Below, one piece after another: positions 2,687-44,636 of a stretch of 62,727 nt of DNA. Both the position numbers and the translations under genes were made by a program. Location of the stretch: the IMG/VR virus record IMGVR_UViG_3300009703_000018, positions 1-62,727 of that record; one strand, given 5' to 3'. The DNA is from a virus. Numbering within the stretch: the first letter of the stretch is position 1; the number at the start of each line of letters is the position of its first letter. The notes under the pieces were generated by a model, which did no database searches, had not been told where the DNA came from, and was given only the letters and a program-made list of their open reading frames with translations.

Positions 2687-2923
2687 GTGACCAATATTTA
2701 CGATGTACTCAGTCAACTGCACACAAAGGCTACAGCAGCCACAGAAGAAGCTGTAGCAGAGGAACTGAAAAGGGAAGACCCACCAGCAGAAGAAGCTGCT
2801 GCTGTACTCCAAGGGGGAATACCTCTTGATGTTAAAGTGAAATACGAAGCAAACCTATCAGAAGAAGTCGATGAAAGTACCCAAGGGGATGACTCAAAGC
2901 GAAGTTCTCGACGTAATAAATAA
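2687..2923 (+). CDS. small acidic protein, first of the rightward operon
   Basis: A 78-residue, Glu/Ala-rich protein beginning at a GTG codon (MTNIYDVLSQLHTKATAATE) with GAAAGGGG 8 bases upstream; it ends in a Ser/Arg/Lys tail. Low-complexity and probably largely disordered or helical; no family recognised. It overlaps the sigma-like gene by 53 bases. Its place directly before the sigma factor and small terminase hints at a regulatory or packaging accessory role, but the sequence does not show one. Confidence 0.55.
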   Translation: MTNIYDVLSQLHTKATAATEEAVAEELKREDPPAEEAAAVLQGGIPLDVKVKYEANLSEEVDESTQGDDSKRSSRRNK

Positions 2924-3416
2924 AATATGTGACAGATACGCTTACAAATTCAAATTTGGTTACTTTGAACCGGACGACATTCGCCAAGAAGCTTTCATAA
3001 TTGCTATTGATGCACTTGAAAGATATGACGAAAGCCGTCCTTTAGAAAATTTTCTCGCTGTTCATGTTAAAAATCGCTTAAACAACTTTAAGCGCGACAA
3101 ATATTATCGTCAGAACAAGAAAAATAACGATGATAAACAACAGCAATTGAACAATAGCAAAAAATTCTTGATGGAACCCCTCGATATTACTAATATTCGG
3201 GACGAACAAGAAAAGAACATGCGAGTCTCAGACGACTTTATTGAGAGTATCGCTAACCAAGAGCTGTTGGACATCATAGATGAACACCTAGATGTAAGCC
3301 TTCGGTCAGATTACCTACGTGTTAGGGATGGAACATACGTCCCTAAGCCAAGAAGAGAGCAAATCATAGAAGAAATCGTAGAAATACTAAGAGAGCATGG
3401 CTATGAAGAAGGGTAG
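2871..3416 (+). CDS. phage RNA polymerase sigma-like factor
   Basis: A 181-residue protein resembling sigma70 region 2. The stretch DDIRQEAFIIAIDALERYD (35-53) fits region 2.1-2.2, which binds the polymerase clamp. The following LENFLAVHVKNRLNNFKRDK (58-77) fits regions 2.3-2.4, which melt and read the -10 box. The C-terminal part (about 95-181) is acidic and lacks an evident region 4, as in T4 gp55-type late sigma factors that read only a -10 element. It starts inside the preceding gene and ends inside the small terminase gene, so expression is coupled. The GGTGTATAAT sites before late genes in this window are its likely targets (inference). Confidence 0.7.
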   Translation: MKVPKGMTQSEVLDVINKICDRYAYKFKFGYFEPDDIRQEAFIIAIDALERYDESRPLENFLAVHVKNRLNNFKRDKYYRQNKKNNDDKQQQLNNSKKFLMEPLDITNIRDEQEKNMRVSDDFIESIANQELLDIIDEHLDVSLRSDYLRVRDGTYVPKPRREQIIEEIVEILREHGYEEG

Positions 3417-4197
3417 ATTTTCTAAGACAGAACAAGAGTTCATCAAAGAAAACCACAAAAAGATGTCAAATCTGGAAATTGGCACTCATCTAGACCGAGA
3501 TCCTGTTTCCATAGAGTCTTACGTGAAGGAGAAAATCGGGACAGCCATACTGGACGACCGTGAAATCGAAGCTTTGCACGATTTACAAAACCGTCCTTTC
3601 TGGAAAGACCTTAGAAAACAGTTTTCAGAAGAAGAATTACAGTCTTTGCTCTACCACTGGGGCCGAATCATCACTCAATTTCGTGATGACGTACTTCCAA
3701 CGGAAGAATTACAGATAATTGATGCCATCAAACTCGAAATTTTAATGAACCGTGCCTTAATCGGCCAACAAACCAACATGAAAAGCATAGATCAGTACGA
3801 ACAACACGTCACTGATGAAAAAGGTAAGCCCCTAGAGATACAAGACAAAGACTATATCTTTAATCTAGAACGACAAATCGCCGTCTGTAGAGCCGCCCAA
3901 GACTCCTTGACTAGAGAATACAAGGACTTGCAAACTAAAAAAGCCGCCATGCTAAAAGATCTGAAGGCTACTCGTGAACAACGCATCAAAAGACTGGAAG
4001 ATTCCAAACAAACCTTCATTGGCTGGGTAAGAAACCTCATGACCAACCCTGATGCTCGCCGGGAGATGGGAACAAACATGGAAAAAATGCGTCTAGCAAC
4101 CAACAAAGAGGCTGAAAGGCTATCCGAGTACCATAAATATGAAGATGGATTATTAGACCAACCATTTTTAACGCCAGACAGCGTTAAGGATGACTAA
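3397..4197 (+). CDS. probable terminase small subunit
   Basis: A 266-residue protein: an N-terminal DNA-binding helix-turn-helix (about 8-50, FSKTEQEFIKENHKKMSNLE...), a helical middle, a long coiled coil (about 150-215, rich in Leu/Lys/Glu) and an acidic tail. This layout (HTH plus oligomerising helices) is typical of small terminase subunits, which recognise the packaging site and stimulate the large subunit. The initiator may be the first ATG or the one 6 bases later. It overlaps the sigma gene by 20 bases and shares the A of TAATG with the next gene. The large subunit lies 5 kb downstream, separated by accessory genes, so the call rests on architecture. Confidence 0.55.
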   Translation: MAMKKGRFSKTEQEFIKENHKKMSNLEIGTHLDRDPVSIESYVKEKIGTAILDDREIEALHDLQNRPFWKDLRKQFSEEELQSLLYHWGRIITQFRDDVLPTEELQIIDAIKLEILMNRALIGQQTNMKSIDQYEQHVTDEKGKPLEIQDKDYIFNLERQIAVCRAAQDSLTREYKDLQTKKAAMLKDLKATREQRIKRLEDSKQTFIGWVRNLMTNPDARREMGTNMEKMRLATNKEAERLSEYHKYEDGLLDQPFLTPDSVKDD

Positions 4198-5003
4198 TGA
4201 ATGATGAACTAAAAAATTTAATCAACGCTATAAACAGCTCTAGTTATAACGACAAGCCATACGAACACTTCTACATGACAAATGTATTTTCAGATGCATT
4301 TTACAATAAGGTTATTCAGTCATTACCAGATGATAGTGAGTACACACCTTTGCCTCATATACAAGCAATGATGTATAACCCTAAAAATAAGGATTCTTTG
4401 TTTTCTGGTAGAAGCAGATTAAAAAACAAACCTGTCGTTAGCACACGAGGAGACTGTTTAGTAGACAGTAAATTTGTTGATAATCACAAGGGGCCGTGGA
4501 AGAAGCTTGCAAATATACTATACTCATCACAACTTAAGGAAGTCTTGTTTCAAAAATTTGAGAAAACTTTACAACAAAGAATGAGAGATGTTTCTTATTT
4601 CATTCCAAAAATGCTAGAAGCAAAACCTACCGTACTTTTAACACGAGACAAAAAAGGATATAGAATACATCCTCATCCAGATTCTATAAAAAGAGTAATA
4701 ACTTTTCAAATATATCTACCAGAAGATAATTCTCATTCGCATCTTGGAACTGTATTAAACAAACCAAAAGGAAAGCTAAAACCATCAATCAAAAAGCCTG
4801 ACTACTTAATCGAAGGCTATGAACATAAGAAGCAGTTTAAAGAATATAAACAATTAGACTATAATAGGAATTCTGGTTATGCTTTTCCGGTCTCTTCCAA
4901 TAGCTGGCATAGTGTAAATGAGATACAGGAAAATTATAATAGAAACTCAATTATGGTTATGTATATTGCACCAACACAAAAGATTAGCCGGGACGACCAA
5001 TGA
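4197..5003 (+). CDS. 2OG-Fe(II) oxygenase
   Basis: A 268-residue protein with the double-stranded beta-helix signature of 2-oxoglutarate/Fe(II) dioxygenases. HxD is formed by H160-P-D162 in RIHPHPDSIKRV, the distal metal ligand is H238 in SNSWHSVNEI, and R249 (10-11 residues on) is placed to bind 2-oxoglutarate. These enzymes hydroxylate peptide, sugar or lipid substrates. Its start overlaps the previous stop by one base, and its end overlaps the sulfotransferase start, so it belongs to a tightly coupled modification cassette. The substrate is unknown; hydroxylation of a virion or surface-glycan component would fit. Confidence 0.75.
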   Translation: MNDELKNLINAINSSSYNDKPYEHFYMTNVFSDAFYNKVIQSLPDDSEYTPLPHIQAMMYNPKNKDSLFSGRSRLKNKPVVSTRGDCLVDSKFVDNHKGPWKKLANILYSSQLKEVLFQKFEKTLQQRMRDVSYFIPKMLEAKPTVLLTRDKKGYRIHPHPDSIKRVITFQIYLPEDNSHSHLGTVLNKPKGKLKPSIKKPDYLIEGYEHKKQFKEYKQLDYNRNSGYAFPVSSNSWHSVNEIQENYNRNSIMVMYIAPTQKISRDDQ

Positions 5004-5740
5004 AAGCCGATTTTATTATCAGTATGCACCGCACTGGTCATCATGCGGTTGCGATTTGGCTATTACACCAAAAACAAGGCATAACAGATTTCTCTATCAC
5101 AACCGTATCTAGCTGGCTGTTTGCTGTTGGTGATAACAGAGAGTTGTTCATGTACGCCAACAATCCTTTTAAGACTGGCCCCAATGAACATCCTGACAAA
5201 CCAAAACTCCCACGAATTATCGACGATGTAAAACCAGAAAGTTTAATCGTATCTCACGAACAAGACACTATCAAAGGCTCTATCGAAAAAGCCGGTCAAT
5301 CTCCTTACTTATTTAATAAACCCATAGTAGTGATTCGTGACTTTAGAAACTGGGTAGCAAGCTGTCTCAAGATGGCTTTACGCGATAACAAAATTATAGA
5401 AGACATTATCAACAACGATAAAGTGGCAGAATATAAAAACCACCTGATTAACTATTCTAAGTTTGACTGTTATTACATTTTGTTTAATGACTGGGCTACT
5501 AACAAAGCTTATGGAGAGGCTATTTGTAATGATCTAGATTACGTATTCACTGATGCCGCCAAAAACCAACTATCTATATTTGGAGGTGGAAGTTCTTTTG
5601 ATGGAATGCAACATCTCAAGACCGCATCACAGATGGACGTAAACAATCGCTATAAAGAGTTAGAGACACACCCATACTTTGAAATGATGATGAGTAAACA
5701 CGATGAAGTTCTCAAACTAAGCGATACTATATTCAAATGA
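5000..5740 (+). CDS. sulfotransferase-like P-loop protein
   Basis: A 246-residue protein with two marks of PAPS-dependent sulfotransferases: an N-terminal phosphosulfate-binding loop (SMHRTGHHAV, residues 8-17, in the place of the usual SxPRSGTT) and a central strand-helix element VVIRDFRNWVAS (about 108-119) matching the 3'-phosphate-binding R-D-x-R-x-x-x-x-S motif. It would move sulfate from PAPS onto a hydroxyl, probably of a glycan. It overlaps both neighbours by 4 bases (oxygenase and gmd). The loop is divergent, so the acceptor and even activity are uncertain. A second sulfotransferase is at 20784. Confidence 0.65.
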   Translation: MKADFIISMHRTGHHAVAIWLLHQKQGITDFSITTVSSWLFAVGDNRELFMYANNPFKTGPNEHPDKPKLPRIIDDVKPESLIVSHEQDTIKGSIEKAGQSPYLFNKPIVVIRDFRNWVASCLKMALRDNKIIEDIINNDKVAEYKNHLINYSKFDCYYILFNDWATNKAYGEAICNDLDYVFTDAAKNQLSIFGGGSSFDGMQHLKTASQMDVNNRYKELETHPYFEMMMSKHDEVLKLSDTIFK

Positions 5741-6762
5741 AAAAAGCAATCATATACGGTGTAACAGGACAAGACGGCTCATACCTATCTGAATTACTAT
5801 TATCTAAACAATACACAGTGTATGGAGTAGCCCGTCGATCTTCCCTCCCAAACACCACCAGAGTAAACCATTTACTAACACAAAAACAGTTTCATGTGGT
5901 TCAGGGTGATGTTACAGATCCTTCTAGTATCTACCGACTCCTGAATGAAGTTCAACCAGACGAAGTATATAATCTTGCGGCACAATCTCATGTTGGTACA
6001 TCCTTTGGACAACCACAATTAACATGGTCAGTCACAGGTCAAGGATGCCTCAATATACTCGAAGTGATACGGCAGATGGCGAACCGTCCACGGTTCTATC
6101 AGGCGAGTAGCAGCGAGATGTTTGGGGATCAGTATAATCTCGATAATAATCGTGAGAAATATCAGGATGAGAAGACTCTGTTTAAACCTCAGTCTCCGTA
6201 TGCAATAGCAAAGCTGGCCGCTCATCACTCTGTAAGGCTCTACAGGGACTCCTACGACATCTTCGCCTGCGGAGGTATTCTGTTCAACCATGAGAGCGAA
6301 AGGCGTGGAGAACGCTTCGTGACGCGAAAGATAAGCCGCTATGTTGCAGACCTCTACTGGGCGACCCAGACGGGTCGTAGTATTCCCAAACTTAAACTTG
6401 GGAATCTAGCCGCTAAGCGTGATTGGGGACATGCAAAAGATTATGTAAAAGCTATGTGGCTAATGCTACAGTACGAAGAACCTATGGACTTTGTAATAGC
6501 CACTGGTAAGACATATTCTGTAGAAGATTGTGTAAAACAAGCTTTTCAGTGTATAAATATTAATGAGTACACTAATTATGTAGAAATAGATCCAGCTCTC
6601 AAAAGACCATCCGAGGTTCCATATTTGAGAGGTTTAGCGAATAAAGCTAAAAGAAGACTTGACTGGGAGCCAGAAATAGACTTTGAAGGCTTAGTCAACA
6701 GAATGGTGCAGCATGATATACAAGGTAGTAATAGATGCAAAGAAGGCTTTAAATGCACTTAA
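5737..6762 (+). CDS. gmd: GDP-mannose 4,6-dehydratase
   Basis: A 341-residue extended SDR enzyme converting GDP-D-mannose to GDP-4-keto-6-deoxymannose, the branch point to fucose, rhamnose and perosamine sugars. Visible features: the NAD(P)-binding GVTGQDGSY loop (8-16), SSSEMFG (catalytic Ser/Thr and Glu, about 122-128), catalytic Y155 and K159 in SPYAIAKLAAH, and the family-specific FNHES-RRGERFVTRK block, with E where P is usual. Length is normal for the family. The central third (about 6060-6420) is richer in G+C than the flanks, suggesting mosaic origin. No downstream reductase or transaminase is in this window; the host or another part of the genome must finish the sugar. Confidence 0.93.
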   Translation: MKKAIIYGVTGQDGSYLSELLLSKQYTVYGVARRSSLPNTTRVNHLLTQKQFHVVQGDVTDPSSIYRLLNEVQPDEVYNLAAQSHVGTSFGQPQLTWSVTGQGCLNILEVIRQMANRPRFYQASSSEMFGDQYNLDNNREKYQDEKTLFKPQSPYAIAKLAAHHSVRLYRDSYDIFACGGILFNHESERRGERFVTRKISRYVADLYWATQTGRSIPKLKLGNLAAKRDWGHAKDYVKAMWLMLQYEEPMDFVIATGKTYSVEDCVKQAFQCININEYTNYVEIDPALKRPSEVPYLRGLANKAKRRLDWEPEIDFEGLVNRMVQHDIQGSNRCKEGFKCT

Positions 6763-20783: not shown

Positions 20784-21437
20784 ATGAAACCTAAAAAGTG
20801 TGCGATAGTAAGCACGCCTAGATCTGGTACGCATTATTTAAGACTTACATTAGACAACCATCCAAAAATGAGATGGATTGGAGAATTTTTTCGATCAAAA
20901 AAAGCAAACAGAAAGTATCCAACTAAAAAACACGAGGAAAGGATAAGAAGTTATATATACAACAACTTGTCCAGCACAGCAATAAATCATTTTGATTGTG
21001 TTGGCTTTGTTTGGCATTTGACTCTTGATAGCGACCTACCTACCTCTAACGTTGATAAATTTATTTTATTGAAGAGAAGAGATATTTTATATCAACTGAT
21101 ATCGTTACTTATAGCAACCAAAACTGGAAACTGGAGAGATACAAAGTCAACTGAACAAATAGAACTAAACATAGCGCAGTTGAGATATTTTATAGATCGT
21201 CAAGAAAAGCTTTATAATGACTTTGAAAACTGGGGAGTAGATTATAAGACAGTTTTTTATGAAGATCTGTGTGACAATTTTGAAGAAACACACAAGTCGA
21301 TACAGGAATACTTAGAGTTAAAACATTTCAAATTAAAACCCTCCTCCTTAATAAAGCAGGAAACACGACCAATACAAAAAATTATATCTAACTACGAGGA
21401 AGTCAAATGGACTTTGGAAGATATGAATTTACTCTAA
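20784..21437 (+). CDS. sulfotransferase
   Basis: A 217-residue PAPS-dependent sulfotransferase. The 5'-phosphosulfate loop is canonical (STPRSGTHYL, residues 10-19), and the 3'-phosphate site is seen in ILLKRRDILYQLIS (about 94-107). It would sulfate a hydroxyl, probably on a glycan or polysaccharide. It begins 1 base after the fibre stop codon and opens an island of modification genes; its end overlaps the methyltransferase start by 31 bases. More orthodox in its P-loop than the homologue at 5000. Fibre glycan or host surface polysaccharide are candidate acceptors (inference). Confidence 0.82.
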   Translation: MKPKKCAIVSTPRSGTHYLRLTLDNHPKMRWIGEFFRSKKANRKYPTKKHEERIRSYIYNNLSSTAINHFDCVGFVWHLTLDSDLPTSNVDKFILLKRRDILYQLISLLIATKTGNWRDTKSTEQIELNIAQLRYFIDRQEKLYNDFENWGVDYKTVFYEDLCDNFEETHKSIQEYLELKHFKLKPSSLIKQETRPIQKIISNYEEVKWTLEDMNLL

Positions 21438-22027
21438 ACTGCGACCGCCCCAACTGGCTAACAGATATAAGACATATAAAAATTATATACGAATTTTTGA
21501 TGGCAAGCGATTTTAAAAAAGTTGCTGAAATAGGTTCGTACTCTGGGGCTTCAACCGCAGCTTTTATTGAAGCTATTAATCAAGGTAAAGATTTTAAGTT
21601 TCATATCTCTGAGCCTAACCCAACAAAGCAATTAAAAGCTTTGCTTTCTATGTGCAAAAAACCTGACAATGTTGTGCTACACAGGCAACTAGGAGAAGAG
21701 ATGTTAGGTTATTGGAAAGGCTTTGACTTTGTTTTTATAGATGGTAATCACGATATAGGCGGTGCTGGTGCAGAATTATTAATGGTTCTTAGACATGATA
21801 TTCCAAATGTTATGGCTCATGACACAAACCTTTCTGTTGTTGAAGGTGAACATACCGGAAAGGGTACTGAACTGCTAGCCAGAGTATTGAAATCGCATAG
21901 AGACTATTATTGGCTAGAAGACAAAGAAGAAAGACCCAAGGAGAGAACAGATAGAGGGTTGTTTTTTGCCACTAAAGAAAAAGAAAAACACAAGATAGCA
22001 GAGGAAGTGTTTAGAGAGTTATGCTGA
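21407..22027 (+). CDS. class I SAM-dependent methyltransferase
   Basis: A 206-residue Rossmann methyltransferase of the type attached to glycan clusters (Methyltransf_24-like): SAM-binding motif I EIGSYSGAST (41-50), an acidic residue ending strand 2 (HISEPNP), and the FVFIDGNHD motif (about 110-118) that often carries the metal ligand of O-methyltransferases. It would O-methylate a sugar. Starts inside the sulfotransferase gene and overlaps the next gene by 7 bases. A second enzyme of the same family is at 22701. Confidence 0.75.
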   Translation: MDFGRYEFTLNCDRPNWLTDIRHIKIIYEFLMASDFKKVAEIGSYSGASTAAFIEAINQGKDFKFHISEPNPTKQLKALLSMCKKPDNVVLHRQLGEEMLGYWKGFDFVFIDGNHDIGGAGAELLMVLRHDIPNVMAHDTNLSVVEGEHTGKGTELLARVLKSHRDYYWLEDKEERPKERTDRGLFFATKEKEKHKIAEEVFRELC

Positions 22028-22701
22028 TATACCTAACGAATATTGGTCAGATGCCTCGCTGGACTAAAATTTATGGAAACCTAGAAGGTGTGTTTGATTA
22101 TGGATCTAAACAAGAATACAACGACATACAAGACCTAAAACTTTTTGGTCTCTACAAAGATGAAAAACGGAATGTAAGACATAATGTTTATCATCCAATT
22201 GACTACGTTTCTCATGATGTGAGAATAGTCATAGGAGAGTTCGACTCTTTAGAGCATTTAGAAAAGTTTAAACCAGATAATTCAAAGGTAGTTAAAGAAC
22301 TAGACAGAGAAAAAAATACATCCATACTAAAAGTAAAATTTCCAATAATGCAGCAGAAGCACAAAGATCATTGTGATGATGCATACACAAACAAACTGTT
22401 CAACAAATTAAGCCAAGACGATAGGGTGCTTTTTTGTTATGTAACAACCAGCGGAAAGGGTATAAGATTTGGCTTTGAGCTAAACGAAAGAGTTAATAAT
22501 GATTTGGAGTACATTTCAAATTACTACTTTTATGGCAAAGAGTTTTTAAAGCACGATGAGGAAAATAAGTTTGGGATTGAATATAACTCTAGTACTACAG
22601 GTGCTTTTTATGAGCTTGGTAGTATTAGTAGCGTATATTGGTTCTTGCCTATTACAGATAAGTGGCATGTTAAGGACTCTATAAAGCTTAAGAAAATATA
22701 A
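22021..22701 (+). CDS. hypothetical protein with an SGKG motif
   Basis: A 226-residue protein of unknown function. The segment VLFCYVTTSGKGIRFGFELN (about 138-157) followed by a helix and a second strand vaguely recalls the 'SGKG.R..F.L' core of VirE-N/BT4734-like primase-family domains, but the usual metal-binding acidic motif is not evident. It sits between two methyltransferases, overlapping them by 7 bases and 1 base, so it is part of the modification island transcript. It might be a divergent AEP-like domain or an unrelated substrate-handling protein. Confidence 0.5.
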   Translation: MLIYLTNIGQMPRWTKIYGNLEGVFDYGSKQEYNDIQDLKLFGLYKDEKRNVRHNVYHPIDYVSHDVRIVIGEFDSLEHLEKFKPDNSKVVKELDREKNTSILKVKFPIMQQKHKDHCDDAYTNKLFNKLSQDDRVLFCYVTTSGKGIRFGFELNERVNNDLEYISNYYFYGKEFLKHDEENKFGIEYNSSTTGAFYELGSISSVYWFLPITDKWHVKDSIKLKKI

Positions 22702-23291
22702 TGGATTATGAATTTACAGAAGATTGGTTTTCTGAAAACAACCCAGAAAAAGTTGTTCTTCAGTTTGATGAGTTCTTGTCTGAGTTCAAAGGTAAACCAT
22801 GTATGTTTCTTGAAATTGGTTCGTTTGAAGGAATGTCAACAATATGGATGCTGGAAAACATACTAACGGAAGAAAGATCGCAAATTTTTTGTATTGACGC
22901 ATGGGCTGAATGGACAGGAGATGCTTTTGTAAGATTTGTTTCAAACATAAGCAAGACAGGACTTAAGGACAAAGTTCATATTGTTAAAGGAGATTCTTCA
23001 GAAGAGTTAAGGATATTTCCAAATGAGTATTTTGATTTTATTTACGTAGATGGAAATCATGATGAGAAGGCTGTTATTAAAGATGCAATAAGCTCTTTTA
23101 GAATTCTTAAAAAAGGAGGAATAATGGCCTTAGATGATTATCTATTAGGGATAAGATACCCAAACACTCCGGGTTCAAAAGCCATGAATGGTTCGGCAAA
23201 AAGAGCGATTGATTATTTTATTAATGTTTTTGAAGATGAATTAGAAGTCATACATAAAGATTATCAATTATGGATTAAAAAAAATGCATGA
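22701..23291 (+). CDS. class I SAM-dependent methyltransferase
   Basis: A 196-residue methyltransferase with motif I LEIGSFEGMS (37-46), an acidic residue after strand 2 (CIDAWAEW) and FIYVDGNHDEKAV (about 113-125). The last is the Asp-containing signature of sugar O-methyltransferases in surface-glycan loci. A tail of about 40 residues completes the fold. It starts on the last base of the preceding stop and overlaps the SGNH hydrolase by 8 bases. It is distinct from, but related in family to, the enzyme at 21407; the two may methylate different positions. Confidence 0.75.
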   Translation: MDYEFTEDWFSENNPEKVVLQFDEFLSEFKGKPCMFLEIGSFEGMSTIWMLENILTEERSQIFCIDAWAEWTGDAFVRFVSNISKTGLKDKVHIVKGDSSEELRIFPNEYFDFIYVDGNHDEKAVIKDAISSFRILKKGGIMALDDYLLGIRYPNTPGSKAMNGSAKRAIDYFINVFEDELEVIHKDYQLWIKKNA

Positions 23292-23967
23292 CTTTTTACT
23301 TTCAAATGGATGCTCGTTTTTAACCAAAAGAGCAGGGGTAAATAAGCACACAGGAATATTACTTGCGGAAAAACTGGGATTAAATCATATAGGTCTTGCT
23401 CAATCAGGAAAAGGAAACGACAGATTAATACTTAGTACTAAATTATTTTTTTATGAAAACCCAGAAAGAATAGAAGACACGTTTGTTTTAATTGGTTGGA
23501 CTAATCCAGCTAGAATTGATTACATAAACAACTATCGTGAAGATTGGATTTGTGCAAAAAAGTGGGGAGAGTCTTGGTTTTCTTTAAACAGAGAACCAAC
23601 TAAACCTCCTACTTGGGATACTTACAAACAAGTTAAGAACTATGGAAATCTAGTTGCAAAGATGCTTAGGCAAACACTTGAACTTCAAGACTTTTTTGAG
23701 AACTTGGGAATAAAGTATTGCATGTATCATTCATTAAGTGTTTTACCGTATAACATAAAAGTCAAACTTGAAAAGTTACAATTGCTTAAAGAAAGAATTA
23801 ATCACAAAAGGTTTTATGAGTTCAATAAGGAAAGCCAGCAAATTTTTGTTAATTCTGACAGATCAAAATTTGTTGTAAGCAAAACAGACTTACACCCTAA
23901 CGCCGAGGGGCATTACGGTTGGTACAAGAAGATAGAAAATTTTATAGAAGAAAATAAACTAGTATGA
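23284..23967 (+). CDS. SGNH-type hydrolase
   Basis: A 227-residue esterase-like protein. Block I: SNGCSF with nucleophile S11. Block II: SGKGNDRLIL near 41-50. A block III-like strand IGWTNPAR lies near 76. Block V: D202-L-H204 in DLHPNAEGHYGW. The catalytic Ser-Asp-His set of SGNH/GDSL enzymes is therefore present. Such enzymes add or remove acetyl and other acyl groups on glycans. Within a sulfotransferase/methyltransferase/glycosyltransferase island, glycan acyl editing is a reasonable inference. Its end overlaps a 34-residue membrane peptide gene (ATGA). Confidence 0.72.
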   Translation: MHDFLLSNGCSFLTKRAGVNKHTGILLAEKLGLNHIGLAQSGKGNDRLILSTKLFFYENPERIEDTFVLIGWTNPARIDYINNYREDWICAKKWGESWFSLNREPTKPPTWDTYKQVKNYGNLVAKMLRQTLELQDFFENLGIKYCMYHSLSVLPYNIKVKLEKLQLLKERINHKRFYEFNKESQQIFVNSDRSKFVVSKTDLHPNAEGHYGWYKKIENFIEENKLV

Positions 23968-24068
23968 AGTACCTGTTAGTCTTGTTATTTTATGTGGCAT
24001 TTTACTTATATAGATATTATAAGAATAAGAAAGATAACGATAACGATCCGTTTATTTACCCTACATAA
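23964..24068 (+). CDS. 34-residue membrane peptide
   Basis: A small frame linked by ATGA to the SGNH hydrolase stop and by TAATG to the glycosyltransferase start, filling the gap exactly. The peptide (starts MKYLLVLLFYVAFYLYRYYK) has one N-terminal membrane segment followed by a Lys/Asp-rich tail. The precise coupling on both sides argues that it is translated. It could anchor the modification enzymes to the membrane, but nothing in the sequence proves this. Confidence 0.6.
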   Translation: MKYLLVLLFYVAFYLYRYYKNKKDNDNDPFIYPT

Positions 24069-24832
24069 TGAAAATAGCAATAGCACAACTACACACAGAA
24101 AATTTTGATGACTGGGCCTATATAGCCATAAAAAATAAAGAAGCCTATTGTAGGCTATATGGATATGATTTAGTTGACAGGAGAGGTCTCTATAACACTA
24201 AGTTTGAAACTAGACACCCTAGTTGGCATAGCGTTAAGTTAATACTAGAGATTTTAGAAACCACAAATGTAGACTGGGTTTTTTGGTCAGATGTAGATGC
24301 CTTAATAATGGACTACACAATAAAACTAGAAGACTTTATTAAACCTAACTACGACATGATTATACCCAATCAAGGACAGGGAGAGTACTGCGGAATAAAA
24401 ACTAGTAACTGTCTTTGTTGCGGTCACTACTTCGTCAAAAATACAGAATGGTCAAAACAATTTTTAAAAACCCTTTGGCAATGGCCAGAGGGAGAATTTG
24501 AAAAATACAAAGAAGACAATTATTGGGAGCAATGTGGCATGAACTATCTCTATAATAAAAATGAGATGGATTTTGACAAGCATGTTTATATAGAGCCAAG
24601 AAACAGAGCGTTTAACTCATTTTATTACCAGACAAAAGACGGAGACCCAATGGAGTTTTGTCAATGGGGTGAGGGATGGTTTAGAACAAAGAAATCACAA
24701 AAAGTTTTAGACGATGGCTTAGGGTCTTCTTATGTTAAAGGTGATTTCATAGTTCATTTTGCAGGAGCGCACTGCGCTCTTCAAAGAAAAGAACTCATGG
24801 AAAAATATTCAGAGAGAGTAAAATGGAACTAA
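24068..24832 (+). CDS. glycosyltransferase (GT34-like)
   Basis: A 254-residue galactosyl/xylosyl-transferase-like enzyme. The metal-binding DxD motif is W73-S-D75-V-D77-A, preceded by the family-typical HPSWHSVKLI helix, and followed by a Cys-rich NCLCCGHYFVKN segment and a C-terminal FIVHFAGAHC, matching the 'HF.G' signature. It would transfer a sugar from UDP- or GDP-sugar. Last enzyme of the island begun by the sulfotransferase, overlapping the next gene by 10 bases. The acceptor may be the adjacent fibre proteins or a host surface glycan. Confidence 0.75.
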   Translation: MKIAIAQLHTENFDDWAYIAIKNKEAYCRLYGYDLVDRRGLYNTKFETRHPSWHSVKLILEILETTNVDWVFWSDVDALIMDYTIKLEDFIKPNYDMIIPNQGQGEYCGIKTSNCLCCGHYFVKNTEWSKQFLKTLWQWPEGEFEKYKEDNYWEQCGMNYLYNKNEMDFDKHVYIEPRNRAFNSFYYQTKDGDPMEFCQWGEGWFRTKKSQKVLDDGLGSSYVKGDFIVHFAGAHCALQRKELMEKYSERVKWN

Positions 24833-37716: not shown

Positions 37717-37727
37717 AGGTGTCCCTA

Positions 37728-40700
37728 ATGGCAGAAAAATTTTCCTTAACAGCTCAGCTAAATTTACAAGCTCCTAAAAACGTAAAGCAAGTATTTAGTC
37801 AAATACAAAAGCAGTTGTCTGGAGCTACTGTAAATGTCAATGTAGCTAAGTCTGCACAAGCAGTAAAAGACTTAAATAAAGTTGCGGTTGCTACAAAAAA
37901 AATAGAAACGGAATCTAAGAAAGCGGCTAAAGGCGCTGACGTAATGGGTAAAGCTTTTGGCTCTGCTTTAAAGAACGTTCTTAGATATGACTTAGCTAGA
38001 AGAGTATTCTCTGCTTTTACAAACACTGTTGAGCAGGGCATCAAGGATGCTATTGATTTTGAAAGAGCTATGATCAGAATTGCTCAAGTTTCTGGTCGAA
38101 CGATGCAACAACTTAAAGGTCTTGAAGCCACCATAACAAGGTTGTCTACCACTCTTGGTGTCTCCTCCTCAAGTCTTGTCAAAGTTGGTTTAATTCTTAA
38201 ACAAACGGGTTTGTCTGTTAGAGACACAGAGCTTGCTATGGCTGCTCTTGCCAAGACAGAACTCGCCCCTACCTTTGACAATATCACAGATACTGCTGAA
38301 ACCGCTGTCGCTGCCATGAGACAGTTTGGTTTAGAAGCTAGTAGACTTGAAGGCTTATTGGGTAAGATCAATACGGTTGCTGCTAACTTTGCTGTTGAAT
38401 CTTCTGATATTGGTGTTGCTATTAAACGTGCCGGTGGTGCATTCAAATCTGCCGGTGGTCAAGTAGAAGAACTTATTGCGCTGTTTACTTCTGTGCGTGC
38501 TACTACTCGTGAAACCGCAGAAACTATTGCTACGGGTTTTAGAACAATCTTTACTAGATTGCAAAGACCCACAACGATCAAATTCTTACGTCAATTTGGA
38601 ATTGAATTAACAGACTTAAATGGAAAGTTTGTTGGGCCTTATGAGGCGGTTAATAGATTAAACAACGCTTTGCAAAATCTAGATCCTAGAGATCTTAGAT
38701 ATTCTCAAATAGTTGAACAGCTTGGTGGTTTTAGGCAAGTGTCTAAAGTTATTCCATTAATTCAACAATTCAATACTGCTCAAGCTGCCTATAAAGCTCA
38801 AATGGAAGGGTCGGATAGTTTAGCTCAAGATGCTGCTACCGCTCAACAATCTCTCGCCGTCCAGCTTCAGAAGCTGACTGAAAATGTAAAAGAACTATTT
38901 AGAGAAATAACGCAATCAAGCGCTTTCCAAGCTTTAGCTAAGATGGCTATTGGTCTTGCAAATGCCATTACTAAAATAGGCAAAGCCCTTGCTCCTGTTC
39001 TTCCTATTCTTGGAGCCTTTGTTGCCGCTAGAGCCGCTGCTTGGGCTGGTGGAAAATTGTTCGGTGGTGGAGTAGGTGGGTTAAATAATGCCCTTGGTAG
39101 TGCAATGGGTGATACCAGCGATGTCTACAAAGGTAATCGTGGTGGTAGAGTTCCCAAAAGATTTAGTCGTGGTGGCTGGGTTCCCGGTACAGGTAATGGG
39201 GATACTGTTCCGGCTTTGCTAGAACCGGGAGAATTTGTAATACGCAAATCAGCAGCACAGGCTTTTGGCCCAAAACTAAGTGGTATTAATAAATATGGTA
39301 GAGGTGGCGCTACAATGCACTCGGTGGGTTATGCAGGAACCCACGATGGCGATAGTTACCATGCTAGTATTACACCCACAGGACAGCCCTACACAACAAC
39401 CACAAGATTAATGGGTGCAGATGCTGTTGAAAAACCCGGAACTGGCGCTAAAGGTAAAGCAGCAAGAGATGCTTGGGCAAAAAAATACGGAGACATGCCT
39501 CATCCCGGTGATTTGGCTACAAGCATAGCTAAGAGCCATATGCGAGGAAGAGGTGGAGCAGCCTTTAATAATATGTTCTTTGATCCAAGCAAAGTAGATG
39601 ATCAGGGAAATAAAAAACAATATGGATACGATAGCACGGGTCGCAGACCACTTTTCAATGCTCCCGGCCTTGTAGAGAAACTACTAAATACCTACAGCGC
39701 AGATGGAAAACCCCTTGCTAAAAAAATGGCCAAAGGCGGCTTAGTTCCCTCCCTCCTTACTCCCGGTGAATTTGTTGTTAATAAAAAATCAGCACAAAGC
39801 ATGGGTTATGGCAAACTCCGAAGCATGAACCGTTATGCAAACGGTGGTGTTGTTAGTGGTGGTGGTGGAAATTCAAACGTTCCAATTAGTCAGGTGACTG
39901 GAGCTGGTATAGCTCTTGATCAATTAAGAGAAAGCGCTGTTAGCGGAGCGGGAGGCTTATACCAAATGGGCGAAGCCGCTACTATCGGCTACGCAAAAAC
40001 TGCTGGTATGGTAACTGGTATAGGCGCTGTTGCTGAACAGCTTGGTATGGGTGGAAAAGCTTTAGATTTCTGGACTGAAACCCTCGCAACATCAGGCGGG
40101 ATTTTATCTGGTTTTAACTCCATGATGGATCAAGCTCAATCAAGTGGATTTATGGATCAGCTTAGTGGCTTTGCCGACATGCTTGGAGACAAGAATAGTA
40201 AAGTTGGTGGCATCCTTGATAGCTTTGGAGGTAAGCTTTCCCAAAAAGGTGGAATCCTTGGAAAAGTTGGTAAAGGCATTCAAGGTGGTGGCGGCTTGAT
40301 GCAGAAGGGTTTAAAAAATGTGCAGGACTTCCGAGAAAAAGGGTTCATGTACAAATCTGTTAATAAGCAAGAAGCTAAGTTGGCACAGGTTGATCGCATA
40401 AAAGCTCAACCCGCAAAATTTAAAGCAAAAGCATTAGAACAAGCAAAAAGAGCAGAAGCTTTCAAGGGGACTGCAAGCAACCTAGGCCAAAGAGCTGGAC
40501 AAGAATTTGGCAAAGCTAAATCACTCAGAGCGCAGCAGCAAGCGTTAGTCACAAAACGTACAACCCCAATGGGTAAGGCAGGAAGGGCAGAATATCACAA
40601 GCTTGGTAAGATGGCAGACGAAGCTGAAAAAGCAGGAAAAGCTTTAAAGGCGCAAGGCCAAGCAGCAAGTGATGCTGCCAAAAAATTCGCAAAAAGCTCT

Positions 40701-43700
40701 GCTACAAACATGTCGAATTCTGCCAAGGCTACTAAAACAGTTAAAGCAATGGCTCCACAATTAACCAAGGCAGCAAAGGGTGCTAAGTTTGCTGCTATGG
40801 GATTAAAAGCGTTAAACCCCGTTGCTATTATAGCAGAAGTGGCTATAGGTAAACTAGGAAATGCAATTGAACAAGACGCCCTTAAGACAATTCAAAGTGG
40901 AGAATTTGAAGCAGAGGACGAAACTGGCCTCAAAGCAAAGGCTGCTGGTGGTAGTGCATTGAAAGGAGCCGCTACTGGTGCGGCTATTGGTATGATACTT
41001 GGCCCCTTTGGTGCTGCGGCTGGTGCTGCGGTTGGTGCTTTATGGGGTGCTGTTAAGGGTTGGATGAACGCTGCTAAAGAAATTGAAAAGGCTAAGTTTG
41101 GAAAAGCGCTTAAGAGTTTAGAAGGCTCAATGAAAGGGCTGGAAGAAGGCACATCATCTACGATGGAAGTCTTCACTGAAATGAAAAACATGAAGTCTGC
41201 CATAAAAGATTTTGGCGACTCAGTAGGTAGCGTAAAGACGGACGAAGCTAATAACAAAATAAGAGAAGCTGGAAACGCTATTCTTGATCATGCTAAAAAT
41301 AACGCTACTAGTGTAGAAGATTTTAGGGCAAGAATTAAAGACACTGTTGATTTAATGAATGAAGATGGATCTACTAGGAAAGACCAAATAGCAGCTCTAG
41401 AAAGAGAACTTGCTGCTCGACTTAAATCAGAAGCTGCCATAAAAGCAGCAGCCGAGGCACAAAGAAAGTTAACAAGAACGCTTGCTGACCTAAGAAATCT
41501 TTCAGGCATATTTAATGAAGTTAGCTATAGAGTTAAACATTTTGGTGAAATTATACAGGGAATTTCAGATCCACTGTCTGGTGGTGCTATAGCATCAATC
41601 ACTGACAGAATGAGACCAGAACAAGGGGATAAAAGGTCTATAGAAAGATTTGAAAGCACAATAGATGGTTTAAGTAATATAGCTGGAGAAGCCGGTGGTA
41701 AAACTCAGGGTCTGGGAAGGGTTGCTGGCAGAGCAAAAGAAGCAGGTTTCTTAAATAGAAATTTAGTACAAGCCATTACTTTAGCCTCAGAGTCAGGTGG
41801 TATTGAGGAAGAAGGTGGTGCTGCTAAAGCAATAATTGATCAGCTAACAAACGCCGCAACAGGAGAAGGGGGTAAATTTGATACTACTACTGGTTTAGGA
41901 AAACGTATTCAAGATCAACTCATGAAAGAAATGGATGAAGCTGATCTTAAAGAGGCGATGAAAGATCCAGCTGCTTTGGCTGAAAAACTTTCAGGAGCCG
42001 CAGATGAATACATAGAAGTATTTAAATCAGCAGGAGAGATGACAGATAAACATCTCCAGCAATTGCAGGCTGCTTATGCTCAAAAAGTAGCTATGGAACA
42101 AAGCTATATAAGCAAGATGAATTCTATTGCAGATCAAGAGTTTGCAATGGAAGAAAGATCAAGAGCAAGGCTTGGTAAAGACCCAGCAACTAATGCAGAA
42201 GTGCAAGCTCAATTCGGTTCAAAGGTCGGTAGAATGACCGCCGGTGTTGGTGGAATTGGTGGATTGAAGACGGGTGTTGCAAAAACGACTCTCTCAGCAG
42301 GGGGTGGCGTAGGTGATGTAGGAGCCGTAGGCGCAGCTTTTAGTGAAACTAGTGCAGCATTGGCTGAAAGCAACGCAGAGATGGCATCATTAGGCTTATC
42401 ATTTAGCGATTTAGCAGATAAGGGAAAAAGCCTATCAGACTCCCAAAAAGAACTTATACAAAAAAACTCAGATCTTAAGAGCGACTACGGAACTCTTCAG
42501 GGCGTACTGAATGAATACGCTAACTCACAACAAAGACTGACCGCTCTTAATAAAGAAGCCGCAGATGCCAGCAAGAGAACAGGAACGCTCAAAGACCTTG
42601 CCATACAGTCTCAGTACGGAACAGCAGAAGAAAAAGATTCAGCTAATAGACTTATCAATGCTGTTGCCATAGCTCAAACAGAAGGCTTGGATGCCGTTGC
42701 TCCCGAATTACAAAAACAAGTAATTGGAATACTTGAAAATATGGGAGAAGGGGACATAGTCAATAAAGACCTTGAAGCTAAAGGTTTTGGTGGTGCAGGA
42801 ATTACTACAGCAAGTGCTGAACAAGAAAGAATTGACAGTGAAATTAAAGATGTCGAAAAACAAGGAATAGATGCTCAAAAAGCATTAGCTGCTGAAGAAA
42901 AAAGTCGAATTGAAGAAATGTCAAAGACCATTGAAGATCTTCATAAAACTTTTATCAAAGAGCTTAAGTCTTTGTTTATTGCAGCAGACAGTAGGCGCGT
43001 AAAAGCAGAGTTAGCAGCAGCAGATGTGGCAGTTGATAAACAAACAGGCCAAATGGAAAAGCTTGTCAAGATTGCTGAAGCACAGACTGGTAAAAAGGGT
43101 CAAGAAGCTTACGATCAGTTCTTTGGTAGTAAGAGTGGTGGAAAAGGTCAAGCACGATTAGATGTAATTACCAGTGGAAAATTGAGAGAGGACAGAGCGA
43201 AGGTAGTTCAGGCTTCTAAAATGAAAACGCTTTTGGGAGGAGATGTCAAAAGAACCAAAGGCATGAGTAGTGGTGATGCCTTAGATACTGGCGATGCTAA
43301 TATCAAACAAAGCTTGATTGCGAAGAAACTTCTTGGTGATGAGCTTAGCACTTTCCAAAACCTAAGAAATGTCAGCACGCTTGATTTTGAAGCAACGCTT
43401 GATCAAAGTGGTGGAGAAGCCGGTGGGGTTGACGACTATAGACAGTCGATGGCTGACATCGAAGCGAACATGAAGAAGAACTACGAAGCATTAGGTCTTG
43501 GCGGTAAATATGACGAAAAAACTGGCAAAATGACCGCTGATGGTGAAGGATTTGAAAAGATAAAAGCAGCTGCCAAAAAAGAACTAATGGATGAAAAGGA
43601 AATCAAAGCAGATGAATTTGATTCAACTGTCACAGCCACAGAGCTTTATGGAAGAATTTTGTCTAAGATAGAGTCAGAAGCCATAACTGCTCAAGAAATG

Positions 43701-44636
43701 GGTACTAGAAAAGCCAAATCTGCTGGAGGTTTAGGATTCAAGGTCATGTCGGGTGGGGGAGCGACAAGCACCACCGTAGCCAAGTCCTTACAGGGTGTAA
43801 AAGTTGGTGGTGGGGAAAATGATATAGCAAATACTCTTGCGGCTTCCCAAGCAGATCAAGCAGCCGCTAAAGCTTCGTTAGATACATTAGCAACAGAAGC
43901 AACAAATGGTAATAGTCTTGATACGCATGATCATACAGCAGAAAGTTTATTAAAGGCTATATTAGACACACTTCAGGGTAAAAAAGTTAAGGGAGCCGCC
44001 GAAAAGACAGGCGAGACAATGAAGAAATCTCTCTCAGACATAGCCAAACAGGTTCATGGCCAAAAAGTTGAAACTGCTCCCATCACTAAAATGGATGAAA
44101 AGATAAAGGCGGCTATCGACAAAATGGGTGTATATGTTGGGGGTACTACAGCTCTGAACGAAGACATGGCGCAGACTATAAGTGGTGGTGGCCCGTTCAT
44201 GGGCGGTTTTTCTGGAGGTGGTGATGCGGCGCAGATGATAGCGGCTGCTGCTGCTGCTATCAACCCACAAGAACTCCGTCCTGATTCTTCGGGCGAGGGT
44301 ACTGTGGATTGGTCGGCAGATACTGAAGGTCTAAATGATAGTATTTCAAGATTCTCAAAAGCAACAGAAGAGCTTGGTGGAGTTATGGGTAATGCGCTTT
44401 CTGTCGAAGTTGGTGGTACTATAGATGTAAACGTTAATATGAATGGTGCAGAATTCCTAAAGGGTGCGCAAGATTCTCTAGGAAAGTATGCTTCGCAGCA
44501 AGTAAGTAAGGGTATTAATAACTTTATTACCCAAGGATTAAAAAACAATAACGTAAAAACAAGGCCAGACTGGGTTAATGAAGGTGGAACAAACGGCATT
44601 CCCGGTAGTAGTAATAATGAATCTGGGAGCATGTAA
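37728..44636 (+). CDS. tape measure protein with inserted SNase-like domain
   Basis: A 2302-residue tail-length ruler. ATG chosen because AGGTG lies 6 bases upstream; an in-frame GTG overlaps that site. Marks: long helical stretches, FERAMIRIAQVSG near 105-117, hydrophobic segments near 420-445 and 1080-1105 (GAAIGMILGPFGAAAGAAVG), and two copies of the tape-measure motif PGEFVIRKSAAQ (about 500) and PGEFVVNKKSAQ (about 679). Between these copies lies a staphylococcal-nuclease-like domain (about 533-665): D540-G-D542, R560-L-M-G-A-D565-A-V-E568 and G-R639-R match SNase D19/D21, R35, D40, E43 and R87. Length suggests a tail of about 0.3 micrometres. No lysozyme-type domain was recognised. Confidence 0.93.
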   Translation: MAEKFSLTAQLNLQAPKNVKQVFSQIQKQLSGATVNVNVAKSAQAVKDLNKVAVATKKIETESKKAAKGADVMGKAFGSALKNVLRYDLARRVFSAFTNTVEQGIKDAIDFERAMIRIAQVSGRTMQQLKGLEATITRLSTTLGVSSSSLVKVGLILKQTGLSVRDTELAMAALAKTELAPTFDNITDTAETAVAAMRQFGLEASRLEGLLGKINTVAANFAVESSDIGVAIKRAGGAFKSAGGQVEELIALFTSVRATTRETAETIATGFRTIFTRLQRPTTIKFLRQFGIELTDLNGKFVGPYEAVNRLNNALQNLDPRDLRYSQIVEQLGGFRQVSKVIPLIQQFNTAQAAYKAQMEGSDSLAQDAATAQQSLAVQLQKLTENVKELFREITQSSAFQALAKMAIGLANAITKIGKALAPVLPILGAFVAARAAAWAGGKLFGGGVGGLNNALGSAMGDTSDVYKGNRGGRVPKRFSRGGWVPGTGNGDTVPALLEPGEFVIRKSAAQAFGPKLSGINKYGRGGATMHSVGYAGTHDGDSYHASITPTGQPYTTTTRLMGADAVEKPGTGAKGKAARDAWAKKYGDMPHPGDLATSIAKSHMRGRGGAAFNNMFFDPSKVDDQGNKKQYGYDSTGRRPLFNAPGLVEKLLNTYSADGKPLAKKMAKGGLVPSLLTPGEFVVNKKSAQSMGYGKLRSMNRYANGGVVSGGGGNSNVPISQVTGAGIALDQLRESAVSGAGGLYQMGEAATIGYAKTAGMVTGIGAVAEQLGMGGKALDFWTETLATSGGILSGFNSMMDQAQSSGFMDQLSGFADMLGDKNSKVGGILDSFGGKLSQKGGILGKVGKGIQGGGGLMQKGLKNVQDFREKGFMYKSVNKQEAKLAQVDRIKAQPAKFKAKALEQAKRAEAFKGTASNLGQRAGQEFGKAKSLRAQQQALVTKRTTPMGKAGRAEYHKLGKMADEAEKAGKALKAQGQAASDAAKKFAKSSATNMSNSAKATKTVKAMAPQLTKAAKGAKFAAMGLKALNPVAIIAEVAIGKLGNAIEQDALKTIQSGEFEAEDETGLKAKAAGGSALKGAATGAAIGMILGPFGAAAGAAVGALWGAVKGWMNAAKEIEKAKFGKALKSLEGSMKGLEEGTSSTMEVFTEMKNMKSAIKDFGDSVGSVKTDEANNKIREAGNAILDHAKNNATSVEDFRARIKDTVDLMNEDGSTRKDQIAALERELAARLKSEAAIKAAAEAQRKLTRTLADLRNLSGIFNEVSYRVKHFGEIIQGISDPLSGGAIASITDRMRPEQGDKRSIERFESTIDGLSNIAGEAGGKTQGLGRVAGRAKEAGFLNRNLVQAITLASESGGIEEEGGAAKAIIDQLTNAATGEGGKFDTTTGLGKRIQDQLMKEMDEADLKEAMKDPAALAEKLSGAADEYIEVFKSAGEMTDKHLQQLQAAYAQKVAMEQSYISKMNSIADQEFAMEERSRARLGKDPATNAEVQAQFGSKVGRMTAGVGGIGGLKTGVAKTTLSAGGGVGDVGAVGAAFSETSAALAESNAEMASLGLSFSDLADKGKSLSDSQKELIQKNSDLKSDYGTLQGVLNEYANSQQRLTALNKEAADASKRTGTLKDLAIQSQYGTAEEKDSANRLINAVAIAQTEGLDAVAPELQKQVIGILENMGEGDIVNKDLEAKGFGGAGITTASAEQERIDSEIKDVEKQGIDAQKALAAEEKSRIEEMSKTIEDLHKTFIKELKSLFIAADSRRVKAELAAADVAVDKQTGQMEKLVKIAEAQTGKKGQEAYDQFFGSKSGGKGQARLDVITSGKLREDRAKVVQASKMKTLLGGDVKRTKGMSSGDALDTGDANIKQSLIAKKLLGDELSTFQNLRNVSTLDFEATLDQSGGEAGGVDDYRQSMADIEANMKKNYEALGLGGKYDEKTGKMTADGEGFEKIKAAAKKELMDEKEIKADEFDSTVTATELYGRILSKIESEAITAQEMGTRKAKSAGGLGFKVMSGGGATSTTVAKSLQGVKVGGGENDIANTLAASQADQAAAKASLDTLATEATNGNSLDTHDHTAESLLKAILDTLQGKKVKGAAEKTGETMKKSLSDIAKQVHGQKVETAPITKMDEKIKAAIDKMGVYVGGTTALNEDMAQTISGGGPFMGGFSGGGDAAQMIAAAAAAINPQELRPDSSGEGTVDWSADTEGLNDSISRFSKATEELGGVMGNALSVEVGGTIDVNVNMNGAEFLKGAQDSLGKYASQQVSKGINNFITQGLKNNNVKTRPDWVNEGGTNGIPGSSNNESGSM

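Follow-up and report, generated by a model that had tools for sequence, protein, structure and literature searches.

Tape measure proteins are thought of as rulers and conduits, which fill the phage tail tube and exit ahead of the DNA. Peptidoglycan-acting enzymes are known from tape measures and baseplate hubs; the wall-degrading domains of SPbeta YomI (annotated as a transglycosylase) and of cyanophage S-BM3 (a glucosaminidase) are examples of an enzyme inside a long tail protein. A baseplate hub with an N-terminal staphylococcal nuclease (SNase) has been described for the Bacillus prophage-like BtI1, the purpose of which was called not obvious by its authors (PMC2147016). Here, we analysed the virus contig IMGVR_UViG_3300009703_000018, a 62.7-kb contig of a lineage without close cultured relatives, at its full length of 62,727 nucleotides (referred to as the window), with a focus on a SNase-like domain within its tape measure protein. 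Our analysis demonstrates that this domain occupies a slot, the content of which is swapped between phages and the fixed borders of which are two PGEFV motifs. In addition, the domain is very probably a homolog of SNases with a complete catalytic set. While peptidoglycan is the substrate of the wall-degrading tail domains, that of the slot domain is most likely nucleic acid.

The 2305-amino acid (aa) open reading frame (ORF) harboring the domain was identified as a tape measure protein by its match to PhageMin_Tail (PF10145; E 1.5e-28, 100.5 bits at a cut-off of 33.2). All residue numbers are counted from the GTG start. The gene, its core domain and the nuclease-like segment with its predicted catalytic motifs are located as follows:

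37719..44636, + strand: tape measure protein gene (GTG start, 2305 aa, ~241 kDa)
38127..38726, + strand: PhageMin_Tail core domain, aa 137-336 (Pfam PF10145)
39309..39731, + strand: SNase-like nuclease domain, aa 531-671 (alignment A2, hhalign, PDB hmmsearch, Foldseek)
39345..39356, + strand: D543-G-D545-S, corresponding to DGDT, the calcium-ligand motif of SNases (both D invariant, 7/7)
39405..39431, + strand: R563-L-M-G-A-D568-A-V-E571, counterpart of R35/D40/E43 (R, D and E invariant, 7/7)
39639..39650, + strand: G641-R642-R643-P644, counterpart of R87 (R-P invariant, 7/7; aligned with the GR of free SNases)

Homologs of the domain reside in the same part of the tape measure on other uncultured-phage contigs, namely L001, L002, L003, L029, L040 and L092. 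A single PGEFV motif precedes the domain of L003, and two such motifs surround those of the other five relatives. The six domains are 28-47% identical to that of the window and constitute, together with the latter, the alignment A2, in which 12 columns are invariant, including those of the catalytic D, D, R, D, E and R. The probability that all six catalytic positions fall among these 12 columns is about 2e-7 (hypergeometric), a value which is biased as several of the sequences were recognised by the same motif. The signature DGD...R...D..E...GR occurs in this order in 7/7 sequences, one of them with DAD and one with DRP in place of GRP. Accordingly, R, D, E and R, the loss of which from homologs would have spoken against the domain in the sequence-only reading, are kept in all seven. 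The motif that had been derived in that reading occurs six times in 4,439 ORFs (765,422 aa), in each case at the SNase site of a tape measure, compared to 0.05 matches per data set after shuffling of each ORF. The slot SNase of L092, which reads RLMDWDAPE, has all of the residues as well, and this contig was retrieved by the tape-measure core alone.

All residues named in the sequence-only reading are present, albeit with numbers that were three too low, as a later methionine had been taken as the start. The GR proposed to contain the second arginine was likewise found (R642 instead of R639), but the arginine conserved among the relatives is the one preceding the proline, R643, one residue further on. 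The spacing R-5-D-3-E matches that of free SNases as had been claimed, whereas the distance from E43 to R87 does not: it amounts to 71-72 residues in the slot SNase of the window and to ~41-48 in the free phage SNases, indicating an insertion. Moreover, the part following R87 appears to be shortened in comparison to free SNases. Because of both deviations, we regard the slot domain as a divergent SNase.

The Pfam search for PF00565 that had been suggested along with the initial assignment gave no match to the domain of the window or to those of the relatives, even with isolated domains up to E 10, nor did a Pfam scan of the whole contig yield a PF00565 match. The question of identity was therefore moved to the profile level. 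An hhalign comparison of A2 with A4, an alignment of six stand-alone phage genes with a SNase or nuclease annotation, resulted in a probability of 94.9% and an E-value of 4.7e-8 with the catalytic residues in register, while eight column-shuffled versions and a reversed one all remained at or below 0.28%. When 177,635 PDB sequences were searched with the A2 profile, the first 10 matches were staphylococcal nucleases without exception (best E 0.0064). Similarly, the top 50 PDB matches obtained by Foldseek with the best AF2 model of the domain (pLDDT 80.8) were all SNases, with probabilities of up to 1.00 and TM scores of only ~0.4, and most of the named top viral matches were SNase/TNase-like nucleases. 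Searches with single sequences returned less: the SNases of L001, L003 and L040 each matched only themselves, and tblastn of the slot against named phages mainly recovered the PGEFV motif of other tape measures, at E-values near or above 0.1. Taken together, profile, profile-profile and structure searches and the PF10145 match confirm the initial claim of a SNase-like domain inside the tape measure.

Several findings weigh against an active SNase in the slot. Apart from the missing Pfam match, the five AF2 models vary in confidence from pLDDT 81 down to 49, the superposition on SNase structures is poor (TM ~0.4, root-mean-square deviation 8-11), and in L029 the DGD is replaced by DAD. The negative Pfam result and the poor global superposition might be taken to mean that the resemblance arose by chance in a tape-measure linker, which we strongly disfavour and consider extremely improbable given the hhalign score relative to its shuffled controls, the exclusive recovery of SNases among the first 10 PDB matches and the independent recovery of a SNase in L092. 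The domain might also be a SNase-derived OB fold with a structural or nucleic acid-binding role and no catalysis, given that nucleic acid binding is typical of OB folds, that the region behind R87 seems shortened and that L029 carries the DAD; this is improbable, as all six catalytic positions are invariant in seven divergent sequences. The models support the OB fold as such as a putative assignment. On the basis of the conserved residues, we propose that the slot SNase is probably an active nuclease.

The position of the domain within the protein is defined by the following features:

39219..39242, + strand: first slot-border motif LEPGEFVI, aa 501-508 (motif also present at the slot borders of relatives)
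39308..39742, + strand: exchangeable cassette of ~145 codons (blastn breakpoints against L084, L092 and L093; GC content)
39756..39779, + strand: second slot-border motif LTPGEFVV, aa 680-687 (sequence motif)

The two flanking PGEFV motifs had been correctly recognised by the sequence-only reading and are found near aa 503-507 and 682-686. As determined by blastn of the gene, DNA homology to L084, L092 and L093 ends at 39307 and restarts at 39743, in each case within about a dozen bases; the exchanged unit is therefore ~435 bp in length. It thus lies inside the tape measure, as had been stated, but is larger than the 39324-39660 originally assigned. The GC content is 46.8% in the cassette, 42.7% in the gene and 39.8% across the window. 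Upstream of the slot, identity of the core amounts to 39-78% in the nearer relatives. An unrelated domain occupies the slot of L084 and L093, the cores of which are 78% and 72% identical to that of the window, while L092, L001 and L002 (75, 72 and 65%) have a SNase at this position. When the slot content is taken as the stretch framed by the first and the second PGEFV motif, it differs widely across related tape measures, with lengths of ~130 to 1900 aa. Together with the blastn breakpoints, this comparison shows that the PGEFV motifs are the borders of a standing slot. Hence, the notion that the segment had been inserted between duplicated motifs holds insofar as the segment is exchanged, but the motifs are the lasting borders and it is the content which is swapped between phages.

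Among 75 distinct slots, six match the SNase profile and 35 match another domain with the pattern E...FDF...DAK; at the level of motifs only, further slots show P-loop, HAD-like and HIGH nucleotidyltransferase signatures. In 23 sequences of the commonest domain, which were gathered with a motif of the same shape (further slots were matched by profile), G53, E57, D78 and K100 are invariant and D98 is nearly so, being E in L088. The residue order E...D...(D/E)xK is the signature of PD-(D/E)XK nucleases. The AF2 model of this domain is of low confidence (pLDDT 63, pTM 0.28), and searches of PDB and Pfam gave no support for the PD-(D/E)XK identity. For these reasons the assignment is kept at the motif level, at which the commonest slot domain fits a PD-(D/E)XK nuclease.

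Some slots have a more complex content. In the giant tape measures of L029 (4734 aa, ORF from 1998) and L040 (5150 aa, ORF from 639), further elements come behind the slot SNase, namely a P-loop motif (GAAGSGKS), a nucleotidyltransferase motif of the HIGH type (GFAPPTRGH) and a segment with E..DFP..VKRT, which looks like several enzymes in tandem. In L003, a 238-kb contig (ORF from 6171, aa 679 onward), a P-loop segment (YGVAGSGKTTLARGQG) comes after the SNase. The slots of L031, L032 and L036 harbor a HAD-phosphatase-like motif (FDFDDTL or FDFDKTL), which in L031 and L032 precedes the E..D..DAK domain. Finally, the more distant tape measures of the L050-L075 group (cores ~25-29% identical) likewise contain two PGEFV motifs, which enclose ~260-500 aa, and the slot may thus extend beyond the present lineage.

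We suggest that the tape measure is a carrier of a SNase-type nuclease as exchangeable cargo. As the protein fills the tail tube and exits before the DNA, genome entry would coincide with the arrival of the domain in the envelope or cytoplasm of the host, perhaps at or across the inner membrane and directly in front of the genome; there it could cut the host chromosome, RNA or the DNA of a competitor. Inside the producing cell and the tail it would presumably be kept inactive or unfolded, and low cytosolic calcium or holding in an unfolded state might render it harmless while the tape measure is produced. An enzyme aimed at the host or at rivals is consistent with both the conserved catalytic residues and the use of other domains in its place. 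Delivery of the domain into the infected cell, where it would act on nucleic acid, is more probable than not, but somewhat less certain than the nuclease activity itself. Tape measures have been found to meet inner-membrane proteins during injection (PMC13190303), and glycine zippers are common to some tape measures and to a DNase effector of a type VI secretion system (T6SS), the translocation of which depends on its zipper (PMC10240207). In the tape measure of the window, hydropathy indicates hydrophobic segments on either side of the slot (aa 410-448, 1022-1046 and 1080-1113), of which two regions are of note:

38946..39062, + strand: hydrophobic segment before the slot, aa 410-448, a possible membrane segment (hydropathy only)
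40944..41060, + strand: hydrophobic segment resembling a glycine zipper, aa 1076-1114 (hydropathy; sub-threshold match to PF13441, E 0.0047)

The protein has a pI of 9.1 and is entirely devoid of cysteine, which would suit a domain that passes a narrow tube and then refolds. A point against delivery of the nuclease is that several folded 15-kDa copies side by side may not fit the tail lumen.

Two other roles of an active nuclease have to be considered. It might process the DNA of the phage itself, for instance packaged DNA or the DNA end located at the top of the tail, which it could trim or hold. The slot resides in the first third of the protein, the part which in well-studied siphophages is thought to be near the head. 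The occurrence of unrelated slot domains between cores that are 72-78% identical is more readily explained by conflict than by a fixed task, and we consider a role on the phage's own DNA very improbable. Alternatively, the nuclease might act in the envelope or outside of the cell, in the periplasm or on surface DNA, for example on the DNA of a second phage or on extracellular DNA, with its need for calcium silencing the domain in the producing cytoplasm. SNases are calcium-dependent, free calcium in the cytosol is low, and the calcium-ligand motif is retained in the slot domain; in addition, tape measures work at the inner membrane during injection (PMC13190303). However, in neighbouring phages the slot is filled with PD-(D/E)XK-like domains; the usual metal of such domains is Mg2+, and, if they are so read, a calcium switch would not be a general rule. 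Action in the envelope or outside is thus unlikely, yet the best placed of these alternatives. 

For the relatives as well, it is nearly as likely as not that the whole uncultured lineage has a tape measure serving as a delivery vehicle with a PGEFV-framed cargo slot, in which nucleases and other enzymes are swapped in the manner of polymorphic toxins and enter the host before the genome.

With regard to the phage itself, the tape-measure core is ~26% identical to SPbeta-type tape measures, and the terminase of the window gave a ~25% match to Bacillus phages such as Stahl and Slash and to Microcystis phage MaeS. In a host search with the tape-measure core, the sole match to a genome contig was a distant one, at 25% identity, in an Azoarcus metagenome-assembled genome. 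Within the regions 2871-6762 and 21407-24832, the window encodes a sigma-70 region 2 protein, a 2OG-Fe(II) oxygenase-like protein, a GDP-mannose 4,6-dehydratase, a methyltransferase (PF13578) and a glycosyltransferase of family 34. A match to EndoU at aa 2112-2189 of the tape measure was dismissed as noise (E 0.15).

Compared to the SNase/thermonuclease family PF00565, including the free genes of cyanophages and of Sulfurimonas phage SNW-1, the slot SNase retains DGD, R, D..E and GR in an identical order, but differs in being embedded in a tape measure, in the longer segment between E43 and R87, in the shortened part after R87 and in escaping detection by Pfam. In cyanophage S-BM3, a cyanomyovirus, the protein WDS61131 (L102, 6688-10701; Synechococcus phage), annotated as hypothetical, has a weak glycine zipper and a degenerate PGEFV motif, and a glucosaminidase (PF01832, E 1.9e-22) follows the PGEFV-like motif. 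Enzyme domains in tail proteins are already known; the new element is the exchangeable nuclease slot. The literature searched, which covered sources other than subscription papers, yielded no previous description of a nuclease carried by a tape measure. Polymorphic toxins and T6SS effectors such as the DNase Tde1 also consist of a delivery part and a nuclease module, and glycine zippers occur in Tde1 and some tape measures (PMC10240207). The slot shares with polymorphic toxins the conserved delivery part and the interchangeable modules, with an enzymatic nature indicated by homology only for the SNase; in contrast to those systems, its module is internal and lies within a phage structural protein. 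In the SNIPE defence, a nuclease and a tape measure likewise meet at the membrane during injection, but there it is a host nuclease that recognises tape measures (PMC13190303), whereas here the tape measure of the phage carries the nuclease itself. If the proposed delivery holds true, phages would attack host nucleic acid or the DNA of rivals as soon as infection starts and prior to any gene expression. The slot would also be a clear example of true domain exchange within tape measures, in which a large survey by Smug et al. found mosaic signals with recent cases being unconfirmed (PMC10684548). The BtI1 hub is similar in that a SNase is fused to a tail protein which reaches the host at infection and in that its flanking domains are exchangeable; it differs in being a gp27-like hub rather than a tape measure and a single case, for which no slot with other nucleases has been described. 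Delivery by the tail, if true, would give a meaning to this so far unexplained SNase as well (PMC2147016).
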